NCBI GenBank assembly: GCA_903944085.1
Contig: CAJAQO010000094.1
Coordinates: 1 to 57,808 of the forward strand
Direction of reading: 5' to 3'
DNA length: 57,808 bases
Origin: an uncultured Verrucomicrobia subdivision 3 bacterium
GTDB lineage: Bacteria; Verrucomicrobiota; Verrucomicrobiia; Limisphaerales; UBA11358
Both the position numbers and the translations under genes were made by a program. Positions within the stretch are counted from its first letter, which is position 1, and the number at the start of each line of letters is the position of its first letter. This document shows positions 41,471 to 57,808 of the stretch, one piece after another. The notes below the pieces were generated by a model. That model worked only from the letters and a program-made list of their open reading frames with translations, made no database searches and was not told where the DNA came from.

Positions 41471-42757
41471 ATGAATGCCGATTTTATTGCCGGACTGGAA
41501 TTTTGGGAGCGCGAAAAAGGCGTCAGCCGTGAAACCCTCATGGCTGCCGTCGAGGAGGCATTGTTGCAGGCGGCCAAGAAAGCCGTCGGCCCGGCGCGCG
41601 AATTGCGCGTGGTGATGGATTCCAAATCCGGCGACATCAAGGCCTTTGCCAAGCTCATCGTGGCGGACAAAGTGATTTCGCAGCACGACCAGATTTCCGT
41701 GTTTGACGCGCGCCGGCTCAAGGCCGATGCCAAAGTCGGCGACGAACTGGAAAAGGAAGTGACGCCGCAGGGTTTCGGCCGCATCGCCGCGCAATACGCC
41801 AAACAGGCGCTGATGCAAAAGGTGCGTCAGGCTGAAAAAGCGATGCTGCTCACGGAATATAAGGACCGCGTCGGCGACATCGTCAGCGGCACCGTGCGCC
41901 GGTTTGAGCGCTCGGACGTGATTTTGGATTTGGGCAAATATGAGGCGCTCATGCCGAACAAAGAGCGCGTGCCCACGGAGGAATATCAGGTCGGCGAACG
42001 CATCCGCGCCTACGTCAAAGCTGTGCAGGAAGGCCCGCACGGGCCCGAAATCATTTTGTCGCGCGCCGACACGCGGTTCATCGTGAAACTGTTTCAACTG
42101 GAAGTTTCCGAGATCAACGACGGCACGATTGAAATCAAGGGCATCGCCCGCGAACCCGGTTTCCGCACGAAAATGGCGGTTTATTCGCGCGACCAAAAAG
42201 TGGATCCGGTCGGTGCGTGCGTGGGCATGCGCGGCCAGCGCGTGAAAAATATTGTTCGCGAATTGAACAACGAAAAAGTGGACGTGATTCCGTGGTCCTC
42301 GGACATCAAGGCATTCGTCACCAAGGCGCTGGAACCGGCGAAAGTCCGCAGCATCGAAGTGAACGAGGCGCGAAAAGTCCTGCACATTCTCGTCGGCGAA
42401 GACCAGCTTTCGCTGGCCATCGGCAAGCGCGGCCAGAACGCGCGGCTCACCGCGCGGCTCACCGGCTGGGAAGTGGAAATTGACGCCGAGCACATCGTCA
42501 CCAAAGGCTTTGAAGAAAAAGTCGCGGAAGCGGTCGAGTTGATTGCCGCGATTCCGGGCATCACCCGCGAACAAGCCGACGCGCTGGTTCACGCTGGCGT
42601 GACGCGGCTGGAAGATTTATTGTCGGCGGAAGCCGGCGACTTGGCGGACATCCCGGAGATTGGCGCCCAGGCCGCGGCAGTTTTGGCCGCCGCGCACGCC
42701 GAGGCGGAGCGCAAAAAAATCAAGCTGAACGGGGACGACTCGTCAGCCGGCCGTTAG
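41471..42757 (+). CDS. nusA: Transcription elongation factor NusA
   Basis: 428 aa. NusA binds RNA polymerase and nascent RNA and tunes pausing, termination and antitermination. Domains: polymerase-binding N-terminal domain (1-125; MNADFIAGLEFWEREKGVS, VTPQGFGRIAAQYAKQAL), S1 (about 130-200; VGDIVSGTVRRFERSDVILDLG, LMPNKERVP, ILSRADTRFI) and two KH domains (about 200-345; DPVGACVGMRGQRVKNI, LAIGKRGQNARLTARLTGW). The C-terminal part (from about 350) has a helix-hairpin-helix (IPGITREQADALVHAGV) and a short acidic/basic tail. It heads the nusA-infB-rbfA operon. rimP, often the first gene of this operon, is absent here. The leader carries a terminator-like hairpin, so NusA could regulate its own synthesis. 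Confidence 0.97.
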   Translation: MNADFIAGLEFWEREKGVSRETLMAAVEEALLQAAKKAVGPARELRVVMDSKSGDIKAFAKLIVADKVISQHDQISVFDARRLKADAKVGDELEKEVTPQGFGRIAAQYAKQALMQKVRQAEKAMLLTEYKDRVGDIVSGTVRRFERSDVILDLGKYEALMPNKERVPTEEYQVGERIRAYVKAVQEGPHGPEIILSRADTRFIVKLFQLEVSEINDGTIEIKGIAREPGFRTKMAVYSRDQKVDPVGACVGMRGQRVKNIVRELNNEKVDVIPWSSDIKAFVTKALEPAKVRSIEVNEARKVLHILVGEDQLSLAIGKRGQNARLTARLTGWEVEIDAEHIVTKGFEEKVAEAVELIAAIPGITREQADALVHAGVTRLEDLLSAEAGDLADIPEIGAQAAAVLAAAHAEAERKKIKLNGDDSSAGR

Positions 42758-48807: not shown

Positions 48808-50685
48808 ATGTTGAAACGCAAAGCTACGGCGGCCAAGAGCGCGCCGCGCACCAAACTTGGCAGCAGTCCGAAAGCCCCGAAATTGAAAGCCCCACCGGCC
48901 CGGCGGCGCTTTGTGATTTCCAGCAAGGCGGTGAAGTTGGACGCGGCCAAGGCTGATCCGGCTCCGGTGTCCCCGGCAAAAACTGCGGCGGCAAAATCGC
49001 CGGCCAACGGCCAGCCGCCGATGCCCATGCCCTCGGCTTTGGCCAATTCGGTGGATTTGACCGAGACGATCAAGACGCTGCTGCATCTTTCGCAGGAGCA
49101 CGGCTACATTACCTACGACGACATCAACGACATTCTGCCGGACAACTTAAGCCCGGAAGATCTCGACGCGGTGCTGTCCAAGCTGCGCGGTTTGGACGTG
49201 GAAATCGTCATGGATCAGGCGGAGGCCGAGCGCGCCGAACGCAAGCAGCCGGAGCAAGCCCAGGCGGAGGAAGCGGACGAAGACGCACGGCTGGAAATTC
49301 TGGACGACCCGGTGCGGATGTATATGAACCAGATGGGCAAGGTGCCGCTGCTCACGCGCGAACAGGAAGTCGAGATCTGCAAAAAAATCGAGGACGCGGA
49401 AGTGGAGATGAAGGCCATCGTTTACAGCCTCGGTTTCACGGCCAAGGAACACATTGCCATTGCGGAAAAACTGTTGTCCGAGCCGCCCAAGGAACGTTTT
49501 GACCGCGTCATCGTGGACAAAAAAATCGCCAATCGCGAAGGTCATCTCAAGGATTTGCGCAAGCTCATCAAAAAGGTGCGCGACATGGACCACAAGGTGG
49601 ACGAAAAATATTTCGCCTGGCAGAAGGCGCAGCAGAAAGGCCGCAAGGAGGCGCTGGAACGCGAACTGAAAAAGTTGAGCACCAAGCTCCAGGAGACCTT
49701 CACCAAATTTTATTACAAGCAGAAAGTCGTCGAGGAAATGATCGTCGTGGCCGGCAACATCCACGAAAAATTCCAGGCGAGCCACCGCCGGCTGCAGGAG
49801 CTGGAAACGCACCGCGCCGGTTCGGAAAAACGCGAGGCGACCGAAGCCGAACAGCAGAAAATCCAGACGCTGGAACTTTTTGGTCGCATGCCGCGCGAGG
49901 AGTTTTTGAAGGCGTTCACTTCCTTGAAAGCCGCGGCGGATCGCGGACTAAAGGCCAAGACGCATATGGCCGAGGCGAATTTGCGCCTCGTGGTTTCCGT
50001 CGCCAAAAAATACACCAACCGCGGCCAATCATTTCTGGATTTGATTCAGGAAGGCAACATCGGTTTGATGAAGGGCGTCGAAAAATTTGAGTATCGCCGC
50101 GGCTACAAATTTTCCACCTACGCGATTTGGTGGATTCGCCAAGCGATCACGCGCAGCATTGCGGATCAGGCGCGCACGATCCGCATTCCGGTGCATATGA
50201 TCGAAATCATGAACAAGCTTTGGCGTGCGCAGAAGCAGCTCACGCAGGAGCTCGGCCGCGAACCCACGCCGGAAGAGTTGGCCGACGAAATGCACATGCC
50301 GGTGGCGCGCATCCACGCGCTGCTCAAAATGGCGCAACAGCCGGTCTCGCTCCACGCGCCGGTGGGCGACGATGGCGACGTGAGCGTCGGCGATTTCATC
50401 GAGGACAAATCGGCGGAAAATCCGTCCGACGTGACGAGCTACAGTCTGCTCCGTGAAAAATTGAGCGACGTGCTGACGACTTTGACCGAACGCGAACGCA
50501 AGATTCTCGAAATGCGGTTCGGCCTCGCCGACGGTTACGAGCGCACGCTCGAAGAAATCGGCAAGATGTATAACGTCACCCGCGAACGCATCCGTCAGAT
50601 TGAGGCAAAAGCGTTGCGCAAGCTGCGTCACCCGACGCGCGTGCGCCATCTGCAAGGCTTCCTCGAAGGCGCCGAGGTTCAGTAA
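48808..50685 (+). CDS. rpoD: Primary RNA polymerase sigma factor (RpoD/SigA)
   Basis: 625 aa. A Lys/Ala/Pro-rich N-terminus (1-75) is followed by region 1.1 (about 80-140; [24 protein letters not shown]), region 1.2 (about 165-195; [24 protein letters not shown]), a non-conserved helical insert (about 200-360) rich in Lys/Glu, and regions 2-4: [48 protein letters not shown] (2.1-2.4), IRIPVHMIE and [12 protein letters not shown] (3), [12 protein letters not shown] and [30 protein letters not shown] (4). The mix of regions 1.1 and 1.2 identifies the housekeeping sigma. A candidate promoter, a leader hairpin and a good terminator surround it, so it is probably its own transcription unit. Confidence 0.97.
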
Positions 50686-50705
50686 CCAGTGGAGTTTTCA
50701 AACCG

Positions 50706-50741
50706 CCGCCCGCGACTTCAAGCCGCGGGCGGTGTTGTTTT
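50706..50741 (+). terminator. Rho-independent terminator of rpoD
   Basis: ccgcccgcg and cgcgggcgg form a perfect 9-bp GC stem with a 9-nt loop, followed by tgttgtttt. It starts 21 bp after the rpoD stop codon. Confidence 0.8.
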
Positions 50742-50928
50742 GGTGACCAGCGCGGCCAATGCGTTCACCGGCCGAAAGGAAAACCGCCTACGCGCGGGCT
50801 GCCAGTGATTTGCCGCGATAAAATTTCCGGTTGGGATTCGTCGCTCTGGATTCGTCGAAGCTGAAGAACATTGTCGCTGCAGGACAGACTTAAAATTAAG
50901 TCGCGCCGGCCTCGCTCACGAAAAGGCC
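50742..50928. other. Short spacer after rpoD
   Basis: No gene or repeat is evident between the rpoD terminator and the small minus-strand frame ending at 50929. Confidence 0.4.
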
Positions 50929-51144
50929 TTAAACCGCGCCGGCTTCAGGACTGGCAGACAAACCCGGCGATTCCAGCATCAGACCCGCAACCTCCTGGGT
51001 AATGGCTGGAGCGTCCTCGCACAACCAATTTTCAAATGATTCCGGAACACTGCTGTGGGGCGAGGAAACGGATGCCGCTGACCGGGCGCTGGCACCGGCG
51101 GTTTTGGCGTGGGCGGTAGATTTTGATCGGTGGCGTTTGTTCAT
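50929..51144 (-). CDS. Possible small Ser/Ala-rich protein
   Basis: 71 aa. A basic, Ser/Ala-rich N-terminal half (KRHRSKSTAHAKTAGASARS) is followed by a more ordered segment ESFENWLCEDAPAITQEVAGLMLES. No family is recognised and no Shine-Dalgarno site is visible. The frame lies between rpoD and a 500-bp spacer. The second half looks coding, but chance is possible. Confidence 0.35.
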   Translation of the reverse strand: MNKRHRSKSTAHAKTAGASARSAASVSSPHSSVPESFENWLCEDAPAITQEVAGLMLESPGLSASPEAGAV

Positions 51145-51679
51145 GGGCTGACGACTGGTTTTGCTTTGATGTTGGTCGCGGCCAAACTCAAAGCATAATT
51201 ATTCACTTAAACCGTTAAAAGCTCAATCCACAGATTTTGCTTATGTTTGGCAAAAAAAGGTTTCAAATCTCTCCGCCGTTTCCGGCTTGTGGAAATGGTT
51301 GGCTGGCTCAACGGCCAGATCGTTTCCGGCGCGAAGCCGGGAGAGTTGACAAAAAAGAGCCTGGCCACCTCAAATAGCCAGGCTCTCCCACTCATCCAAT
51401 ATGAAAACCAACGTCTGTTCAGACACGGCGGCGGCCAATCTGTTCAATCACGGATTTTAAATTATCGCGGCCGGGCCACGCCGTTTAGCCGCCGGCTGGT
51501 TTGCTGGACTGATTCGCGGATTTGTCCAGCCGCGCGTTTGCCTTTTGACTTGAACTGTGCCGCCGGTATTGCCACAAATGATGTGCCCACCCGCTCAATC
51601 CGTGCCGCGTTGCCAAAGGCTGCCGGCTCGCTGGCGCTTGGTGCGGCCAGACAAACAATTTAAAGCACTAGAAAATTAT
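51145..51679. other. 535-bp spacer with one strong hairpin
   Basis: No convincing gene. The frames across it change character mid-way and lack start signals. It contains the hairpin at 51351-51386 and probably the promoter of the DUF1080 gene at its right end. Confidence 0.45.
51351..51386 (-). terminator. Minus-strand terminator-like hairpin
   Basis: agagcctggc and gccaggctct are perfect 10-bp arms with an 11-nt loop. Read on the minus strand, the stem is followed by a run of T, the form of an intrinsic terminator. No minus-strand gene lies directly upstream (to its right), so it might end an unannotated small RNA. Confidence 0.6.
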
Positions 51680-52408
51680 ATGAAAAATTTGCTGACCTTC
51701 GCTGGAATCCTGCTGGTGGCCACCGGCGCTTTGACCGCCGCTCCGTCGCCGGCGGAACCGGGTTTTGTGAGTCTCTTTGACGAACAGACGCTGACCGGCT
51801 GGAAGGTCGGCGAGAACGCCGGTGTCTTTCAGGTTCGCGATGGCATGATTGTGATGGAATGTCCGGCCACCAATCATTCGCCCGCGCACCTGTATTATGT
51901 CGGGGACGTGAACGGTCACCAGTTCAAGAATTTTGACCTGCGGGTGGATGTGCTGACCTTTCCGGGCGCGAACTCGGGAATTTATTTTCATACGAAGTAT
52001 CAGGAGGCTGGCTGGCCCAAGTGCGGCATCGAATGCCAGGTTGACAACAGCCACAGCGACTGGCGCCGGACTGGCAGCCTGTGGGGCATCAGAAACATCT
52101 CGTGGGGACCGGAGGCTCCGCCGGCGGACAACCAGGAAGTGGTGACCATTTTGCCGAAGCCGGAAGTGACGGACAATGTCTGGTATACTCAGGAAGTCAT
52201 CTATCAAAACGGATTGGTGACGGTCAAACTCAACGGCAAGACCATGTTCACCTACACAGTTTCAACGGCTGAGGCTGAACATGCGTTGCCGACGGGAGGA
52301 ACCTGGCTGCCGCGCGGCACCTTTGCCTTGCAGGGGCATCCGCCGATGCCCGGCCGGATCAGCAAGGCCTGCTTCAAAAATATTCGCGTCAAGCTTCTGC
52401 CGGACTAA
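51680..52408 (+). CDS. Exported 3-keto-disaccharide hydrolase (DUF1080)
   Basis: 242 aa from the ATG at 51680, where a signal peptide begins (MKNLLTFAGILLVATGALTAAP). The DUF1080 concanavalin-like fold is recognised from FVSLFDEQTLTGWKVGE, FQVRDGMIVMECP, FDLRVDVLTFPGANSGIYFHTKYQ, GIECQVDNSHSD, GSLWGI, VIYQNGLVTVKLNGKTMF and the C-terminal GTFALQGHPP.PGRISKACFKNIRVKLL. Characterised members hydrolyse 3-keto glycosides made by oxidoreductases; many others are uncharacterised glycan-binding proteins. No partner oxidoreductase is encoded nearby. ribD begins 100 bp downstream, but a functional link is unlikely. Confidence 0.9.
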   Translation: MKNLLTFAGILLVATGALTAAPSPAEPGFVSLFDEQTLTGWKVGENAGVFQVRDGMIVMECPATNHSPAHLYYVGDVNGHQFKNFDLRVDVLTFPGANSGIYFHTKYQEAGWPKCGIECQVDNSHSDWRRTGSLWGIRNISWGPEAPPADNQEVVTILPKPEVTDNVWYTQEVIYQNGLVTVKLNGKTMFTYTVSTAEAEHALPTGGTWLPRGTFALQGHPPMPGRISKACFKNIRVKLLPD

Positions 52409-52509
52409 ATAAATTTTCCCAAAAAACCGGGCACGCATGGCACGGCTGCGCGGTTTGAATTCTGAAATCTCTTTTGGATTTTTTCCGGCGGCGGCTATGC
52501 TGCGTGGCG

Positions 52510-53646
52510 ATGACTGACGCCGCATTCATGCGCCTTGCTCTCCGGCTTGCCCGGCGCGGCAACGGCACCACTTCTCCGAACCCGCTGGTCGGCGCGGTGC
52601 TGGTGAAGGGCGGCCAAATCATCGGGTGCGGCTGGCATCGGCGCGCGGGTTTGCCGCACGCGGAAATCGAGGCACTCCGCGACGCACAAACACACGGATA
52701 CTCGCCGCGCGGCGCGACGCTTTACGTCACGCTTGAACCTTGCTGCACGCACGGTCGCACGCCGCCATGCACGGACGCGATTATTTCCGCCGAAATAAAA
52801 AAAGTTGTCATCGGCGCGACCGATCCAAATCCCAAACATGCGGGCAAAGGTTTCAAGATTTTGCAACGCGCGGGAATTGAAGTGGTTCATGGAATCTTGT
52901 CCGATGAATGCACGAGGCTGAACGAAGCATTCAACCACTGGATTATTCACCACACACCGTTCGTCACGGTCAAAGCGGCGATGACGTTGGATGGAAAAAT
53001 TGCCACGGCCGGCGGCGAATCCAAATGGATCACCGGCGAAAAAACCCGCGCGCACGGCATGAAATTGCGGCAGGCATCAGACGCCATCCTCGTCGGCATC
53101 AACACGATTTTGGCGGACGATCCGAGTCTGACCTTTCGAAAGCGGAAAGCGGAAAGCGGAAAGCGGAAACAACTTCGCCGCATCGTCCTCGATTCGCGCG
53201 CACGGACGCCGCTGGAGGCGAAAGTGGTGAGCGATGAATTTGCGGCGCTGACGACGATTGTGGTCGGCAAACTGGCGCCGAAAAAACGCGTCGCGGCCCT
53301 GGCAAAAAAAACGAATGTCGTCATCGCGCCGGCAAAAAAATCCGCCATCCGCCATTCGCCATCCGCCATTGATCTGCGCTGGCTGTTGAAAAAGCTGGGC
53401 GCGGAAAACGTCACGAGCCTGCTGGTCGAGGGCGGCGGCGAGGTGAACGCCTCATTTCTGCTCGGCGGTTTCGCGCAGCGGGTGGCATTTTTTTACGCGC
53501 CGAAAATTCTCGGCGGTCGCGCGGCGCGCAAGGGCGTGGCCGGTGACGGCGCGAGGAATTTGAGCGAAGTTGTCCAGCTCCACGACGTCGAATGGCGCAA
53601 ACTCGGCGAAGATTTGCTGCTGACGGCGCGGGTGGTTGCAGGTTGA
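52510..53646 (+). CDS. ribD: Bifunctional riboflavin biosynthesis deaminase/reductase RibD
   Basis: 378 aa from the ATG at 52510. RibD deaminates the pyrimidine intermediate and reduces its ribosyl side chain. The deaminase half has SPNPLVGAVLVKGGQIIGCGWH, the zinc ligands HAEIEAL (H50) and PCCTHGRTPPC (about 77-87), and GATDPNPKHAGKG. The reductase half has PFVTVKAAMTLDGKIATAGGESKWITGE, SDAILVGINTILADDPSLT, RRIVLDSRART, LLVEGGGEVNASFL and APKILGG. Two stretches are foreign to the family: RKRKAESGKRK, after DDPSLTF, encoded by aaagcgg heptamers, and SAIRHSPSAI, encoded by ccgccat heptamers. Both leave the frame intact in loop positions. ribE follows after a 66-bp gap filled mostly by a third array. 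Confidence 0.95.
   Translation: MTDAAFMRLALRLARRGNGTTSPNPLVGAVLVKGGQIIGCGWHRRAGLPHAEIEALRDAQTHGYSPRGATLYVTLEPCCTHGRTPPCTDAIISAEIKKVVIGATDPNPKHAGKGFKILQRAGIEVVHGILSDECTRLNEAFNHWIIHHTPFVTVKAAMTLDGKIATAGGESKWITGEKTRAHGMKLRQASDAILVGINTILADDPSLTFRKRKAESGKRKQLRRIVLDSRARTPLEAKVVSDEFAALTTIVVGKLAPKKRVAALAKKTNVVIAPAKKSAIRHSPSAIDLRWLLKKLGAENVTSLLVEGGGEVNASFLLGGFAQRVAFFYAPKILGGRAARKGVAGDGARNLSEVVQLHDVEWRKLGEDLLLTARVVAG
53139..53166 (+). repeat. Heptamer aaagcgg x4 inside ribD
   Basis: Four perfect copies within the reductase half, translated as a Lys/Arg-rich loop. Identical in unit and copy number to the array at the dedA 3' end. Confidence 0.85.
53342..53369 (+). repeat. Heptamer ccgccat x4 inside ribD
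   Basis: Four copies, the third with one change (tcgccat), in frame in ribD. The same heptamer is in the pdxA 5' end. Confidence 0.85.
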
Positions 53647-53704
53647 ACGTTGAAAGTTATAGGTTGGAAAAACTTGCAACCTTCAACCGTTAACCGCCAA
53701 CATT
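53635..53704. repeat. Mirror-image heptamer array between ribD and ribE
   Basis: Strict period 7 across 70 bp: gttgcag, gttgaac, gttgaaa, gttatag, gttggaa, aaacttg, caacctt, caaccgt, taaccgc, caacatt. The second half is the reverse-complement type of the first, so the RNA can fold as a hairpin. It starts inside the last codons of ribD and ends 8 nt before the ribE ATG. Confidence 0.85.
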
Positions 53705-53712
53705 ACGTTTCT

Positions 53713-54321
53713 ATGTTCACAGGCATTGTCGAAGAAGCGGGCGTCATTGAAAAAATCACGCCCACAAAAAAATCCATTGAACTGACCGTGCGTGCCAGCG
53801 TCTGCGGGCGCGGCGTCAAAATCGGCGACAGCGTGGCCGTCAACGGCTGCTGCCTGACGACGGTGAAAGTCGCCACGCGCGGCCGGGCGAAGCTGCTGCA
53901 ATTTGATCTGCTGCAGGAAAGCTGGCAGCGGACGAATTTCCAATTCGGCCAGCCGGGTTCGCTCGTGAACCTCGAACGTTCGCTGCGCGCGAATGGCGAG
54001 CTGGGCGGCCATTTCGTGACCGGCCACGTGGACGGCCTCGGCAAAATCATCAAGTGGGAACGCGCGGGCAAAGATCACTTGCTCGACATCGCCGCGCCGG
54101 CGGACGTGATGAAATATCTGGTTTTCAAAGGCTCGGTGGCGGTGGACGGCATCAGCCTGACGGTGGCGGCGGTGCAGAAAAAAAGTTTCCGCATCTGGAT
54201 CATTCCGCACACGTTTGACGTGACGGTGCTGCGCGAGCGGAAGGTGGGCGACGCGGTGAATCTGGAAGCGGATTTGCTCGGCAAATATGTGGAGCGGTTT
54301 CTGGCCGGGCGCAAGCGTTGA
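53713..54321 (+). CDS. ribE: Riboflavin synthase alpha chain
   Basis: 202 aa from MFTGIVEEAGVIE at 53713, the family's invariant start; upstream in-frame codons come from the repeat array. Riboflavin synthase dismutates two lumazines to riboflavin. Two similar lumazine-binding halves are visible: GDSVAVNGCCLTTV in the first and GSVAVDGISLTVAAV in the second, with LERSLRANGELGGHFVTGHVDG between them, and IPHTFDVTVL, VNLEADLLGKYVERF at the end. It forms an operon with ribD. ribF is elsewhere in the window; ribA/B and ribH were not found here. Confidence 0.96.
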   Translation: MFTGIVEEAGVIEKITPTKKSIELTVRASVCGRGVKIGDSVAVNGCCLTTVKVATRGRAKLLQFDLLQESWQRTNFQFGQPGSLVNLERSLRANGELGGHFVTGHVDGLGKIIKWERAGKDHLLDIAAPADVMKYLVFKGSVAVDGISLTVAAVQKKSFRIWIIPHTFDVTVLRERKVGDAVNLEADLLGKYVERFLAGRKR

Positions 54322-54397
54322 TGCCAGCGGGTTTTAAGGCTTGAAAAATTAACCCGCCCGACACATGATCGCCATATAATTTGAGCAAGCTATTGCC

Positions 54398-55156
54398 GTG
54401 AAACTGTCCAAAGAATCCGTCCGTTTGCTGGTGAGCGCGCCGACGCAATACGCGGTCCGGCTGGCGGGTTCGCCGGCGGAAATTCGCGCGGCGCAGGCGC
54501 TGCGCTTTCAGGTTTTCAATCTGGAACTGAACGAGGGGTTGGCGCAGTCCTATGAAACCGGGCGGGACGCCGATCCGTTTGACGCCGTGTGCGATCATCT
54601 GTTGGTCGAGCACACCCCCACGCGGCAGATTGTAGGAACTTATCGCCTGCAAATGGGCGCGAGCGCGGCGAAAAATCTGGGCTATTATTGCGCGCAGGAA
54701 TTTTTCTTCGCGGTTTATGAACCGTATCGGAAACAGATCGTGGAGCTGGGTCGCGCCTGCGTTGACCGGCACCACCGCAATCTGGTCGTGCTCGGGCTGC
54801 TGTGGAAAGGCATCGCTGATTATGCGCGCGAACGCGGCGGACGGTATCTGATCGGCTGCAGTTCGCTTACCACGCAGGAGCCGGCGGCGGGCGCTTCCGC
54901 CTACTCCGAGTTGTGCCGCAAAAATTTGGCGGACACGCCGTGGCGGACCCAGCCGCTGCCGACGCATGAATGTCCGCTGGAAACGATGACGGAAGAAAAA
55001 GTGTCCATCCCCAAACTGCTGCGCGCCTACCTCACCGTCGGGGCGAAAATCTGCGGGCCGCCCGCGCTCGACCGGCATTTTCAGACGATTGATTTTCTCA
55101 CGCTGCTGGATCTGGAAACGCTTTCGCCGCTGACGCGCGCGCGTTTTCTCGGTTGA
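54398..55156 (+). CDS. OlsB-like ornithine N-acyltransferase
   Basis: 252 aa, GTG start. A GNAT-fold acyltransferase of the OlsB/hemolysin-related group: AAQALRFQVFNLELNEGL, DPFDAVCDHLLVEH, VGTYRLQM, YYCAQEFFF, QIVELGRACVDRHHRN, LLWKGIADYARERGGRYLIGCSSL and the C-terminal LLRAYLTVGAKICGPPALDRHF, DFLTLLDLETL. OlsB transfers a 3-hydroxy fatty acid to ornithine to make lyso-ornithine lipid. An acyltransferase of the OlsA type follows 31 bp downstream, which supports the assignment. Related enzymes make other aminolipids, so ornithine is likely but not certain. Confidence 0.85.
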   Translation: MKLSKESVRLLVSAPTQYAVRLAGSPAEIRAAQALRFQVFNLELNEGLAQSYETGRDADPFDAVCDHLLVEHTPTRQIVGTYRLQMGASAAKNLGYYCAQEFFFAVYEPYRKQIVELGRACVDRHHRNLVVLGLLWKGIADYARERGGRYLIGCSSLTTQEPAAGASAYSELCRKNLADTPWRTQPLPTHECPLETMTEEKVSIPKLLRAYLTVGAKICGPPALDRHFQTIDFLTLLDLETLSPLTRARFLG

Positions 55157-55187
55157 CCTCGGCGCGCTTCGCGTTTGAAATCTGCGG

Positions 55188-55925
55188 ATGACATTGCGCG
55201 CGGCGGGAAGAATTTTCTGGTTTGCCTTCGAGGCGCTGGTGATCGTTTTGAATTATTTTTTCACCGCCGCCTTCGCGCCGCAAAAATCCAGGCGCGTGGC
55301 CCGCGCCGCGTGGTTGAGCCGCTCGTCGCGCCGGCACCTGAAAATCTTCGGCTACTCCGCCGATGTCGCCGGCGTGATTCCCCAAAGCGGGCTGCTCATC
55401 AGCAATCACTTGAGCTATCTCGACGTGCTGGCGATTTCGGCGGTCACGCCGGCGGTGTTCGTGTCCAAGGCGGAGGTGCGGCGCTGGCCGCTGTTCGGCT
55501 GGTTTGCGGCCATGGCGGGAACGGTGTTTGTCCAGCGCGAACGCCGCCTGCAGGTCGGCGACGTGAACCGCGAAATTGAAACCGCGCTGGCCGCCGGCGC
55601 GCTGGTGGTGGTGTTTCCCGAAGGCACGAGTTCCAACGGCGAAATCGTTTTGCCCTTTCGCACCTCGCTGCTGGAACCGGCCGCGCGCGGCGGACATGAA
55701 ATTTTCGTCGGCTGGCTGCATTACGAACTGCCCGGCGGCGATGCCGGCAACGAAGTTTGTTACTGGGGCGACCACGCTTTTTTCCCGCACCTGCTCAATC
55801 TGCTCGGAAAAAAATCCGTCCGCGCGACCCTGCGTTTCGGAAAATTTCAGCGCACCACCGACGACCGCAAGGAACTGGCGAAACAACTGCGCGCCGCTGT
55901 TTTGGAATTGCCGGCGAAAGACTGA
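55188..55925 (+). CDS. 1-acyl-glycerol-3-phosphate/OlsA-like acyltransferase
   Basis: 245 aa. A PlsC-type acyltransferase: an N-terminal membrane helix (FWFAFEALVIVLNYFFTAAF), the catalytic NHLSYLD box (HX4D, about residues 73-79), VSKAEVRRWPLFGW, GTVFVQRERR and FPEGTSSNGEIVLPF (the phosphate-binding FPEGT box). Placed directly after the OlsB-like gene, it fits OlsA, which adds the second acyl chain to lyso-ornithine lipid at the inner membrane. A general phosphatidic acid synthesis role is the alternative. It ends 4 bp before the convergent exonuclease gene. Confidence 0.87.
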   Translation: MTLRAAGRIFWFAFEALVIVLNYFFTAAFAPQKSRRVARAAWLSRSSRRHLKIFGYSADVAGVIPQSGLLISNHLSYLDVLAISAVTPAVFVSKAEVRRWPLFGWFAAMAGTVFVQRERRLQVGDVNREIETALAAGALVVVFPEGTSSNGEIVLPFRTSLLEPAARGGHEIFVGWLHYELPGGDAGNEVCYWGDHAFFPHLLNLLGKKSVRATLRFGKFQRTTDDRKELAKQLRAAVLELPAKD

Positions 55926-55929
55926 CGCC

Positions 55930-56466
55930 TCACCACTTCACCGGCACGATCGTTTTTTTTCCAAACTTGTTCGCGTAGTGCAGCTGTTTGTGGTGCGCGC
56001 CGTATTCGTGGACGAGCTTGGTGATTTTCACGTCGTAGCAGCAATATTCCGCGATCTCCGCGAGCTTGCCTTCCTTCCACCAGCGGATCGCCTGCAAGCC
56101 TTCCGCCGTTTTTTCCACGCCGAACGTCGCCGTGGCAATCGAGTCGAGCGAGAGCCGGTGGCCGAGCGTATTCTGCAATTCCACCAGCATGTCGAGCGTC
56201 GGCACCTGGCTCAAATCAAACGTCGTGTAGGCGTGCAGCACCTCGTAGTCAAAGCGCAAATTGTTGAAGCCCACCACCAGATCGGCGCGCTGCAACTCCG
56301 TGATCAAGGCGTTGACCTGTTTCTCGCCATAAATCGTATATTCGCCGCGCGCCGTGTTGTAAGTAACGCCGACGCTCATGCCCATCTTGGAAATGTTGTT
56401 CCAACCGCCGACTTCATCGGCGGACTTCTGCGTTTCCAGATCGAAATAAACAATGTTCTTGGCCAT
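55930..56466 (-). CDS. DEDD-type 3'-5' exonuclease-like protein
   Basis: 178 aa from MAKNIVYFDLETQ at 56466; upstream codons lie in repeat DNA. The RNase H-like exonuclease fold shows the D-x-E motif (YFDLET), a second motif GFNNLRFDYEVL with Asp, and YCCYDVKIT with Tyr and Asp in the place of the third motif, consistent with a DEDDy-like arrangement. VPTLDMLVEL, LGHRLSLDSIATATFG and AIRWWKEGKLAEIAEYC also fit proteins annotated as ribonuclease H-like or YprB-like. It acts alone or with a helicase not encoded here. A heptamer array lies 13 nt upstream of its ATG. Confidence 0.82.
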   Translation of the reverse strand: MAKNIVYFDLETQKSADEVGGWNNISKMGMSVGVTYNTARGEYTIYGEKQVNALITELQRADLVVGFNNLRFDYEVLHAYTTFDLSQVPTLDMLVELQNTLGHRLSLDSIATATFGVEKTAEGLQAIRWWKEGKLAEIAEYCCYDVKITKLVHEYGAHHKQLHYANKFGKKTIVPVKW

Positions 56467-56479
56467 CGGCCACAATTTA

Positions 56480-56507
56480 CGATTTGCGATTTGCGCTTTA
56501 CGAGCTT
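56480..56507. repeat. Heptamer array upstream of exonuclease gene
   Basis: cgatttg, cgatttg, cgcttta, cgagctt: two perfect copies and two degenerate ones, 13 nt upstream of the exonuclease start codon. Confidence 0.65.
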
Positions 56508-56595
56508 TTTCACAAACCGCGTTGGCCGCCGGTGGCCGTCCGCAAGAATTCCTCGAGACCGGATTTCGCGCGTTGAAATCCTGAACCGGTGCCAA

Positions 56596-56700
56596 CGTAG
56601 CGCGGCCGTCCCCGGCGGCGAGTGTCGGCGGCGTCTCGCCGCCAGTTCTTTCACCGGGCGAGACGCCCGGCCAGCCCGCCGACGGGCCGCCGGCGCTACG
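56596..56700. repeat. GC-rich cruciform repeat with terminal inverted repeats
   Basis: A 105-bp block bounded by cgtagcgc and gcgctacg. Inside are further dyads such as cgggcg-aga-cgcccg and gcccg-ccga-cgggc, and several cggcg/cgccg segments. No coding frame is supported. It resembles a REP- or MITE-like non-autonomous element. Confidence 0.65.
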
Positions 56701-56765
56701 AGGTTTAGGGAGAAAACCATCATAACATTGACGGGAATTTCATTTTTGGGTATGCAGGGGACATT

Positions 56766-56861
56766 ATGCAGATGGAAACCTTGAGGATTTTCTGCGATGT
56801 GGCGGTGACTCAAAGCTTCACCGATGCCGCCCGCCTTCATGGCTGCACCCCGGCCAGATAG
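56766..56861 (+). pseudogene. Truncated LysR-family regulator
   Basis: The frame from ATG 56766 reads METLRIFCDVAVTQSFTDAA then RLHGCTPA before a TAG at 56859. This is the N-terminal helix-turn-helix of a LysR regulator (IFCDVA...SFT.AA...G.TP), cut inside the recognition helix. After codon 31 no frame continues the family (expected AVSQ...L). The break at about 56837-56855 coincides with the end of a minus-strand coding remnant, so the regulator was probably disrupted by insertion or recombination. Confidence 0.65.
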
Positions 56862-57025
56862 TTCCAGATGGCCGTGGTCAGTGCGTCAACGCTCGTGAAA
56901 CTGCCCGGCAATAATACGTCCTGGCCCAGATTGTCGAAGGCAGCCACGGTGGATCCGTTGAGTCGGTTGTGAGAAAGATCCGAGCAAAGAACACCAAACA
57001 CTTTTTTTACGTAAAATTTGCCTGA
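56837..57025 (-). pseudogene. C-terminal remnant of an unknown protein
   Basis: An open minus-strand frame of 62 codons without a start codon ends in TGA at 56837. It reads CSDLSHNRLNGSTVAAFDNL, then VLLPGSFTSVDALTTAIWNY and LAGVQP. LSHNRLNG recalls a leucine-rich repeat, and the rest looks like a natural C-terminus. It is preceded in frame by TAA. Probably the tail of a decayed gene brought in with the material that interrupts the LysR gene. Confidence 0.3.
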
Positions 57026-57498
57026 TTATACATGAACCACATGACAGGAGCCCGTAAATTAGTCCGGACCACAACCGCGCCATGAGCAAACAAGAAACCG
57101 ATGGCCTGATCCAAGATCGGACCGACAGGCCCGACACCGGGTGACCGTCTACGCGGAGAAAGTCGCGAGCTGGACTGCTGGCTCCTCAACCGCCACTGGC
57201 TAATGAAACGTGGACCCTCGCAGCGGATGGCATGTGTTGGTGTTCGGCGGAGTGCCGTGTCGCACGAAATCAACTGGAGGTTCGCGTCTCAATGTTACAT
57301 TAAAGGTTGAAAGAGCTGATTTACAACCTGCAATCTTTTGGAACTTCTACGATCGGACGAGGAATGGGAAAAATGAACGCGCGCTTGAGCGAGGTTCAGC
57401 AAACTCACGCAGAGCGAAATTGCAAGGCCGTGAGAAAGACGCAGACAAAGAAAACCGAAGGATGAAATCGCAGTAGGAGGTTTTGCGCTAAGGCCGTT
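57026..57498. other. Decayed region without a recognisable gene
   Basis: Several short frames (for example 57210-57476 plus, basic and Arg/Lys-rich) have no family features and are broken by stops. Composition is closer to neutral GC than the housekeeping genes to the left, suggesting foreign or non-coding DNA between the LysR break and the tRNA fragment. Confidence 0.45.
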
Positions 57499-57519
57499 TG
57501 GCACAAATCTGGCACAAAT
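57499..57519. repeat. Direct repeat tggcacaaat, 11-bp period
   Basis: Two exact copies start at 57499 and 57510. One helical turn apart and about 100 bp from a tRNA 3' end, they could be arm-type sites for a tyrosine recombinase, which is inference. Confidence 0.6.
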
Positions 57520-57620
57520 GGGAAAATGGAGGATACCAGAACCCAAAACCCCCAAATTAAAGGTCGCAGGAAAGCCTTGATTTGAAAGTGGTTCAATGGG
57601 GTTCGAACTAAGACAAAAAA

Positions 57621-57647
57621 TGGAGCGGGTGAAGGGATTTGAACCCT
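57621..57647 (-). other. 3' fragment of tRNA-Gly (probable attachment site)
   Basis: On the minus strand the segment reads a T loop (GGTTCAAATCCC), then acceptor strand CACCCGC, discriminator T and CCA. The 3' strand and UCCA end fit tRNA-Gly (5' acceptor GCGGGTG). No D arm, anticodon arm or 5' acceptor strand is found on the adjoining side, so it is a fragment. Tyrosine-recombinase elements commonly leave such 3' tRNA copies at their ends. Confidence 0.6.
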
Positions 57648-57667
57648 ATAATTACACAACGAAATAA

Positions 57668-57808
57668 GGACCTGTCTGGGATTTTTGTGTGTGAGGCATA
57701 ACCAAGAAAGTAAAGTGAGTTATGTCTGCAACGAAAATGAATGAAGTGGCGGAGTCGCAGCGCGGGTCCGCCGTGTTGGATCAACTGCTGGAAGGCTGCG
57801 AGAAGCCG
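57668..57808 (+). mobile_element. Left end of an IS256-like insertion sequence (partial)
   Basis: A terminal sequence of the ggacctgtctgggattttt type, followed by gtgtg, resembles IS256-family ends. A short leader and the start of a transposase-like frame follow. The window ends 141 bp in, so the right end and target duplication cannot be seen. It adjoins the tRNA fragment by 20 bp. Confidence 0.5.
57722..57808 (+). CDS. IS256-like transposase, N-terminal part
   Basis: 29 codons from ATG 57722 to the window edge, with an AGTGAG stretch upstream as a possible ribosome-binding site. The reading MSATKMNEVAESQRGS, then AVLDQLLEGCEKP, resembles the LDQLL.GC.TPEDLLGE entry of many IS256 transposases. 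The catalytic DDE region is outside the window, so the call rests on this segment and the upstream terminal sequence. Confidence 0.5.
   Translation, partial: MSATKMNEVAESQRGSAVLDQLLEGCEKP

Follow-up and report, generated by a model that had tools for sequence, protein, structure and literature searches.

The right end of an assembled contig from an uncultured Verrucomicrobia subdivision 3 bacterium carries a fragment of a tRNA-Gly gene, a pair of direct repeats and the end of an insertion sequence (IS) side by side. The question raised by this locus is whether an integrated element once had its boundary here and, if so, on which side the element lay. The DNA analyzed, termed the window below, is the whole of contig C94 (57,808 nucleotides) of a draft genome of 5.79 Mb in 335 contigs, and the site adjoins the right contig end at 57808. 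The locus is probably a relic attachment (att) site, left by a mobile element that targeted tRNA-Gly by means of a tyrosine integrase. The scar itself is of an ordinary kind for a genome.

A tRNA-Gly tail lies between phased repeats and an insertion sequence

Read on the minus strand leftwards from the contig edge, the end of an IS256-family element is followed by a short AT-rich stretch, a tRNA-Gly tail ending in CCA, a T6 run, a spacer and two copies of the motif TTTGTGCCA (Table 1).

Table 1. Features at the right end of the window.
Feature	Position	Strand	Basis or content
Left end of IS256-family insertion sequence, truncated at the contig edge	57668..57808	+	
AT-rich non-tRNA DNA (GC 0.20), 20 bp, where the tRNA 5′ part would be expected	57648..57667	.	
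tRNA-Gly 3′ 27 nt (T-arm, acceptor 3′ strand, CCA), candidate att core	57621..57647	-	Matches to intact tRNA-Gly
T6 run directly after CCA	57615..57620	-	Within a 33-bp match to relatives' tRNA-Gly(GCC) 3′ ends
Spacer separating the candidate core from the candidate arm sites; no gene found	57520..57614	.	
Two TTTGTGCCA copies (57510-57518, 57499-57507), lag 11 bp, candidate integrase arm-type (P′-side) sites	57499..57519	-	Repeat and motif recurrence
Lineage-specific debris left of the repeats	56513..57498	.	Dispersed repeat 56531-56713, LysR 5′ fragment 56728-56856, no other recognizable genes

The 27-nt tail differed at two positions from tRNA-Gly(CCC) on contig C6 and from tRNA-Gly(GCC) on contig C269, which are two of the three intact tRNA-Gly genes of the genome (anticodons GCC, CCC, and TCC). 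The second-best ungapped match in the window to the tRNA-Gly(CCC) tail had 10 mismatches, and no tRNA gene was found in the window by ARAGORN. The first-pass annotation of this DNA had described a 27-bp tRNA 3′ copy, direct repeats one helical turn apart and an IS256-like end within 20 bp, and all three were confirmed. It had also proposed looking for an intact tRNA-Gly and for a second copy of the 27-bp sequence. Three intact genes were indeed present on other contigs, but none with the exact tail, and a genome-wide search gave no second exact copy of the 27-mer, the copies with two mismatches lying in intact tRNAs on other contigs. Among the 320 genomes of the order sample, the exact 27-mer was found in one, the genome studied here, in single copy. 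The two-base difference from the local tRNAs counts against the reading as a relic att site, as does the position of the site at the end of a draft contig.

Matching IS ends were present on contigs C97 (100% identity) and C17 (99%). When translated, the beginning of the longer IS copy matched IS256-family transposases by tblastn (58% over 47 amino acids of the N-terminal part), and in this N-terminal similarity the IS of the window resembles the family. Some of the genes matched are annotated as IS256 family transposase; no transposase match was obtained for the 64-amino acid IS stretch in Pfam or NCBIfam. Members of the IS256 family have terminal inverted repeats and an 8-9 bp target duplication. 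Searches of the genome recovered three left ends of the IS and no right end. Since the IS and the tRNA fragment are neighbors, one might suppose that the IS had simply inserted into a tRNA gene, and the first-pass annotation had set a complete tRNA spanning the IS against its own interpretation. However, tRNA identity ends at 57647, and the tRNA tail and the IS are parted by 20 bp of AT-rich non-tRNA DNA; therefore, the tRNA was not disrupted by the IS, and this explanation is extremely improbable. The IS256-family element would have inserted later, 20 bp away from the core.

The phased repeats are candidate arm-type sites

The repeat pair, TGGCACAAATCTGGCACAAAT, is identical over 10 bp at a lag of 11 bp and lies 101 bp beyond the CCA end of the tRNA tail. 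Two perfect repeats (lag 10-12, at least 10 bp) were present in the window, as compared with a mean of 0.17 in Markov-simulated windows. The other perfect direct repeat is found at position 42439 and has a 12-bp lag and a length of 14 bp. Most likely, the phased repeats are paired candidate arm-type sites of a tyrosine integrase. With the tRNA-Gly tail serving as att core, the N-terminal domain of the integrase would bind the pair 3′ of the core on one face of the helix.

Phased repeats were also counted beside the tRNAs of the same genome. At lags of 10-12 they were found 15-130 bp 3′ of 8/45 tRNAs and at 1.2% of 4000 random places (binomial P about 5e-8), at a score threshold that was set after a first look at the repeats. 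The corresponding count for tRNA 5′ flanks was 1/46, a difference from the 3′ flanks that is weak in numbers (Fisher P 0.014). The repeat sequences vary from tRNA to tRNA, and the one at tRNA-Gly(TCC), which belongs to the eight, falls at the beginning of a coding frame, and chance probably accounts for it. When 67 distinct tRNA 3′ flanks from the genome and its relatives were compared, an integrase ORF was located downstream in 4 of the 10 flanks with repeats and in 3 of the 57 without. Two same-genus tRNA-Gly(CCC) loci (L255 and L260) displayed the order tRNA, perfect 11-bp-lag pair, integrase. At tRNA-Val(GAC) (L043), the phased repeats on the 3′ side preceded a fragment resembling an integrase N terminus, detected with a home-made profile, and at tRNA-Arg(ACG) (L045) they preceded a frame that appeared integrase-like by eye and gave no confident Pfam match.

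The motif pair recurs beside tRNAs and integrases

The pair was searched for as TTTGTGCCA-N2-3-TTTGTGCCA, with the 9-bp motif given twice, and the reversed pattern served as control. At least 118 stretches of the genome collection contained the pair. It was found in 8 of 293 order-sample genomes, including the one studied here, and the control in none; in viral contigs, 77 stretches matched, against 7 for the control. The genome loci yielded 132 pairs in 127 loci, with that of the window included, and 30 of these pairs were placed 3′ of a tRNA or tmRNA at a distance of up to 300 bp; 25 of the 30 shared its orientation. An integrase ORF was detected within 1.5 kb of 34 of the 132 pairs and for none of the remaining 98, counts that are partly circular because the integrase profile, built from the integrases of the genome itself, was grown with matches from the same 127 loci. 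The viral counts rest on new loci: an integrase was present within 600 bp of 46/83 viral pairs (control 0/7), and a tRNA was present within 300 bp for 14/83, with the pair on its 3′ side (control 0/7). The link between the motif and integrases is a statistical one; this, and the 98 pairs for which no integrase was detected, weigh against the att-site reading.

A further reading of the site is that the tail stems from a tRNA-Gly gene of phage or other foreign origin, that the phased repeats nearby are due to chance and that no att site is involved. The 26-nt tail did occur exactly inside viral contigs (five stretches of three contigs), always at the end of a tRNA gene. Nevertheless, repeats of such a score are seen at only about 1% of random places and the motif is tied to integrases, and this reading is very unlikely.

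The 3′ placement of the pairs is not an absolute rule, because nine TTTGTGCCA pairs sit on the 5′ side of a tRNA. At eight loci (L086, L101, L130, L173, L174, L199, L202, and L206), the pair is about 45-80 bp upstream of the tRNA 5′ end; these 5′-side loci involve mostly tRNA-Leu, and also tRNA-Arg, with an integrase beyond the pair in most. It looks as if some integrases work on the 5′ side of their tRNA.

Several tRNAs keep a pair with no integrase found nearby, and for this reason tRNA-side pairs may be either fossil stubs or docking sites. At tRNA-Gly(CCC) on contig C6 (L010:7172-9910), Wadjet-like JetA, JetB, and JetC genes, identified with PADLOC profiles, start about 300 bp or less 3′ of the tRNA, behind a perfect 11-bp-lag pair, and no integrase was found within 2 kb downstream. 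As a speculative and rather doubtful generalization, tandem TTTGTGCCA-type arm sites spaced by one helical turn on the 3′ side of tRNAs could be a motif class used by unrelated integrases across phyla. Pairs lacking an integrase could be remnants of old att sites, or sites still used by elements that depend on an integrase acting in trans; the Wadjet-like island would be one such element. A mildly useful by-product of the analysis is that phased arm-type repeats 3′ of tRNAs can flag integration sites after loss of the integrase, and a phylum-wide scan for such repeats could count the islands lost from tRNA genes.

The left flank and the probable direction of the putative lost element

Same-genus relatives were collinear with the window up to about 56512. 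Past this point, 25 of the 28 same-genus loci with downstream DNA carried a peroxiredoxin-like gene, and no tRNA was found in the same-genus stretches retrieved. In the window, about 1-1.1 kb of lineage-specific debris separates the conserved chromosome from the site, and GC content falls towards the core, from 0.58 (50001-56512) to 0.44 (57481-57620). The GC-rich intergenic repeat within this debris has five more similar copies in the genome and related pieces in relatives. A Pfam search of the frames left of the phased repeats gave a LysR helix-turn-helix fragment as its sole match. Rfam gave no credible match, and a DNA-level search of the plasmid and phage collections with 56700-57808 found no relative. 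The first-pass annotation had also called for an integrase gene; neither an integrase nor a remnant was detected in the window end, either with Pfam or with the integrase profile at E <0.1. The lack of an integrase within tens of kb, which that annotation had named as evidence against its own interpretation, therefore holds on the left up to the limit of the contig, the right side lying beyond it. All 14 Phage_integrase matches in the genome were on other contigs.

Another interpretation of the site is a chromosomal rearrangement that split a tRNA-Gly locus and brought its 3′ end here together with an old att flank. The exonuclease-peroxiredoxin adjacency of the relatives is broken in this genome, where the peroxiredoxin-like gene is found on contig C83 near 88455, and this would fit such an event. 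However, intact genes for each of the three tRNA-Gly anticodons exist elsewhere and none matches the 27-mer exactly, and the interpretation is unlikely. Because the displaced gene on C83 adjoins other chromosomal genes and has no tRNA copy beside it, it does not bracket a possible insertion.

To return to a relic att site, the arms of lambda-type att sites are element DNA, and at an attL-type end they are found beyond the 3′ end of the restored tRNA, on the side of the integrase. The comparable repeats found near tRNAs were mostly on the 3′ side and, in cases with a detected integrase, lay between it and the tRNA. Since the candidate arm sites in the window are on the tRNA 3′ side, which here is the left, the integrase end of the element would have faced left. 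The earlier proposal that the element body continues to the right of the window was therefore left unsupported. The integrase-proximal end probably lay on the left and would since have been lost by deletion or by decay, with about 1 kb remaining.

The 20 bp to the right of the core could be the opposite arm, which would make the site attP-like or a tandem junction, or they could be host DNA if the core sits at a secondary site. It is possible, though not favored, that the locus is a junction of two tandem elements or a captured attP, with another element continuing to the right beyond the IS. Non-tRNA DNA abutting the core on its 5′ side would be expected at a P-core-P′ junction, and an integrative island has been reported to form tandem arrays, including at a secondary site (PMC2297512). 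However, just 20 bp are readable to the right of the core, and no TTTGTGCCA-like site (two mismatches or fewer) was found from the core up to the contig end.

The first-pass description of a partly destroyed boundary of an integrative element thus holds in part: the tRNA tail, the arm-like repeats and the lineage-specific DNA support an att-type boundary, while an integrase, a second core copy and an intact tRNA with this exact tail were not found, which weighs against it. Because the integrase and the second copy were not found, membership as an element is not claimed; the site probably works, or once worked, like the att site of a tRNA-targeting integrase element.

Comparison with known systems

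When set against tRNA-targeting tyrosine-integrase att sites, the probable relic in the window differs in that it lacks an integrase, a second att copy and the 5′ half of the target tRNA. In the literature on arm-type sites and tRNA-integrated islands, surveyed mostly at title level, no title presents phased repeats as fossil marks at tRNAs.

In ICEMlSymR7A, according to the sections of PMC11963761 on its attP, several P/arm-type motifs are needed for integration and the integrase gene adjoins attL. The arm motif given there, TGKTGGTATC, differs from the TTTGTGCCA of the window. In mycobacteriophage att sites, as described in PMC3203893, the core lies in a tmRNA or tRNA and has paired 11-bp arm-type repeats next to it; the window resembles these lambda-type P-core-P′ sites, as in the K1/K3 attP, in its candidate core running from the tRNA T-arm to the 3′ end and in the paired 11-bp repeats beside it.

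For the motif together with an integrase, one relevant literature match was obtained. A table in PMC5431838 lists TTGTGCCAAATTTGTGCCAAA as the ‘att core’ of prophage b of Lactococcus garvieae IPLA 31405. That table has the pair as the core rather than as arm sites and gives no tRNA for the prophage; the motif pair and its 11-bp lag are the same as in the window.
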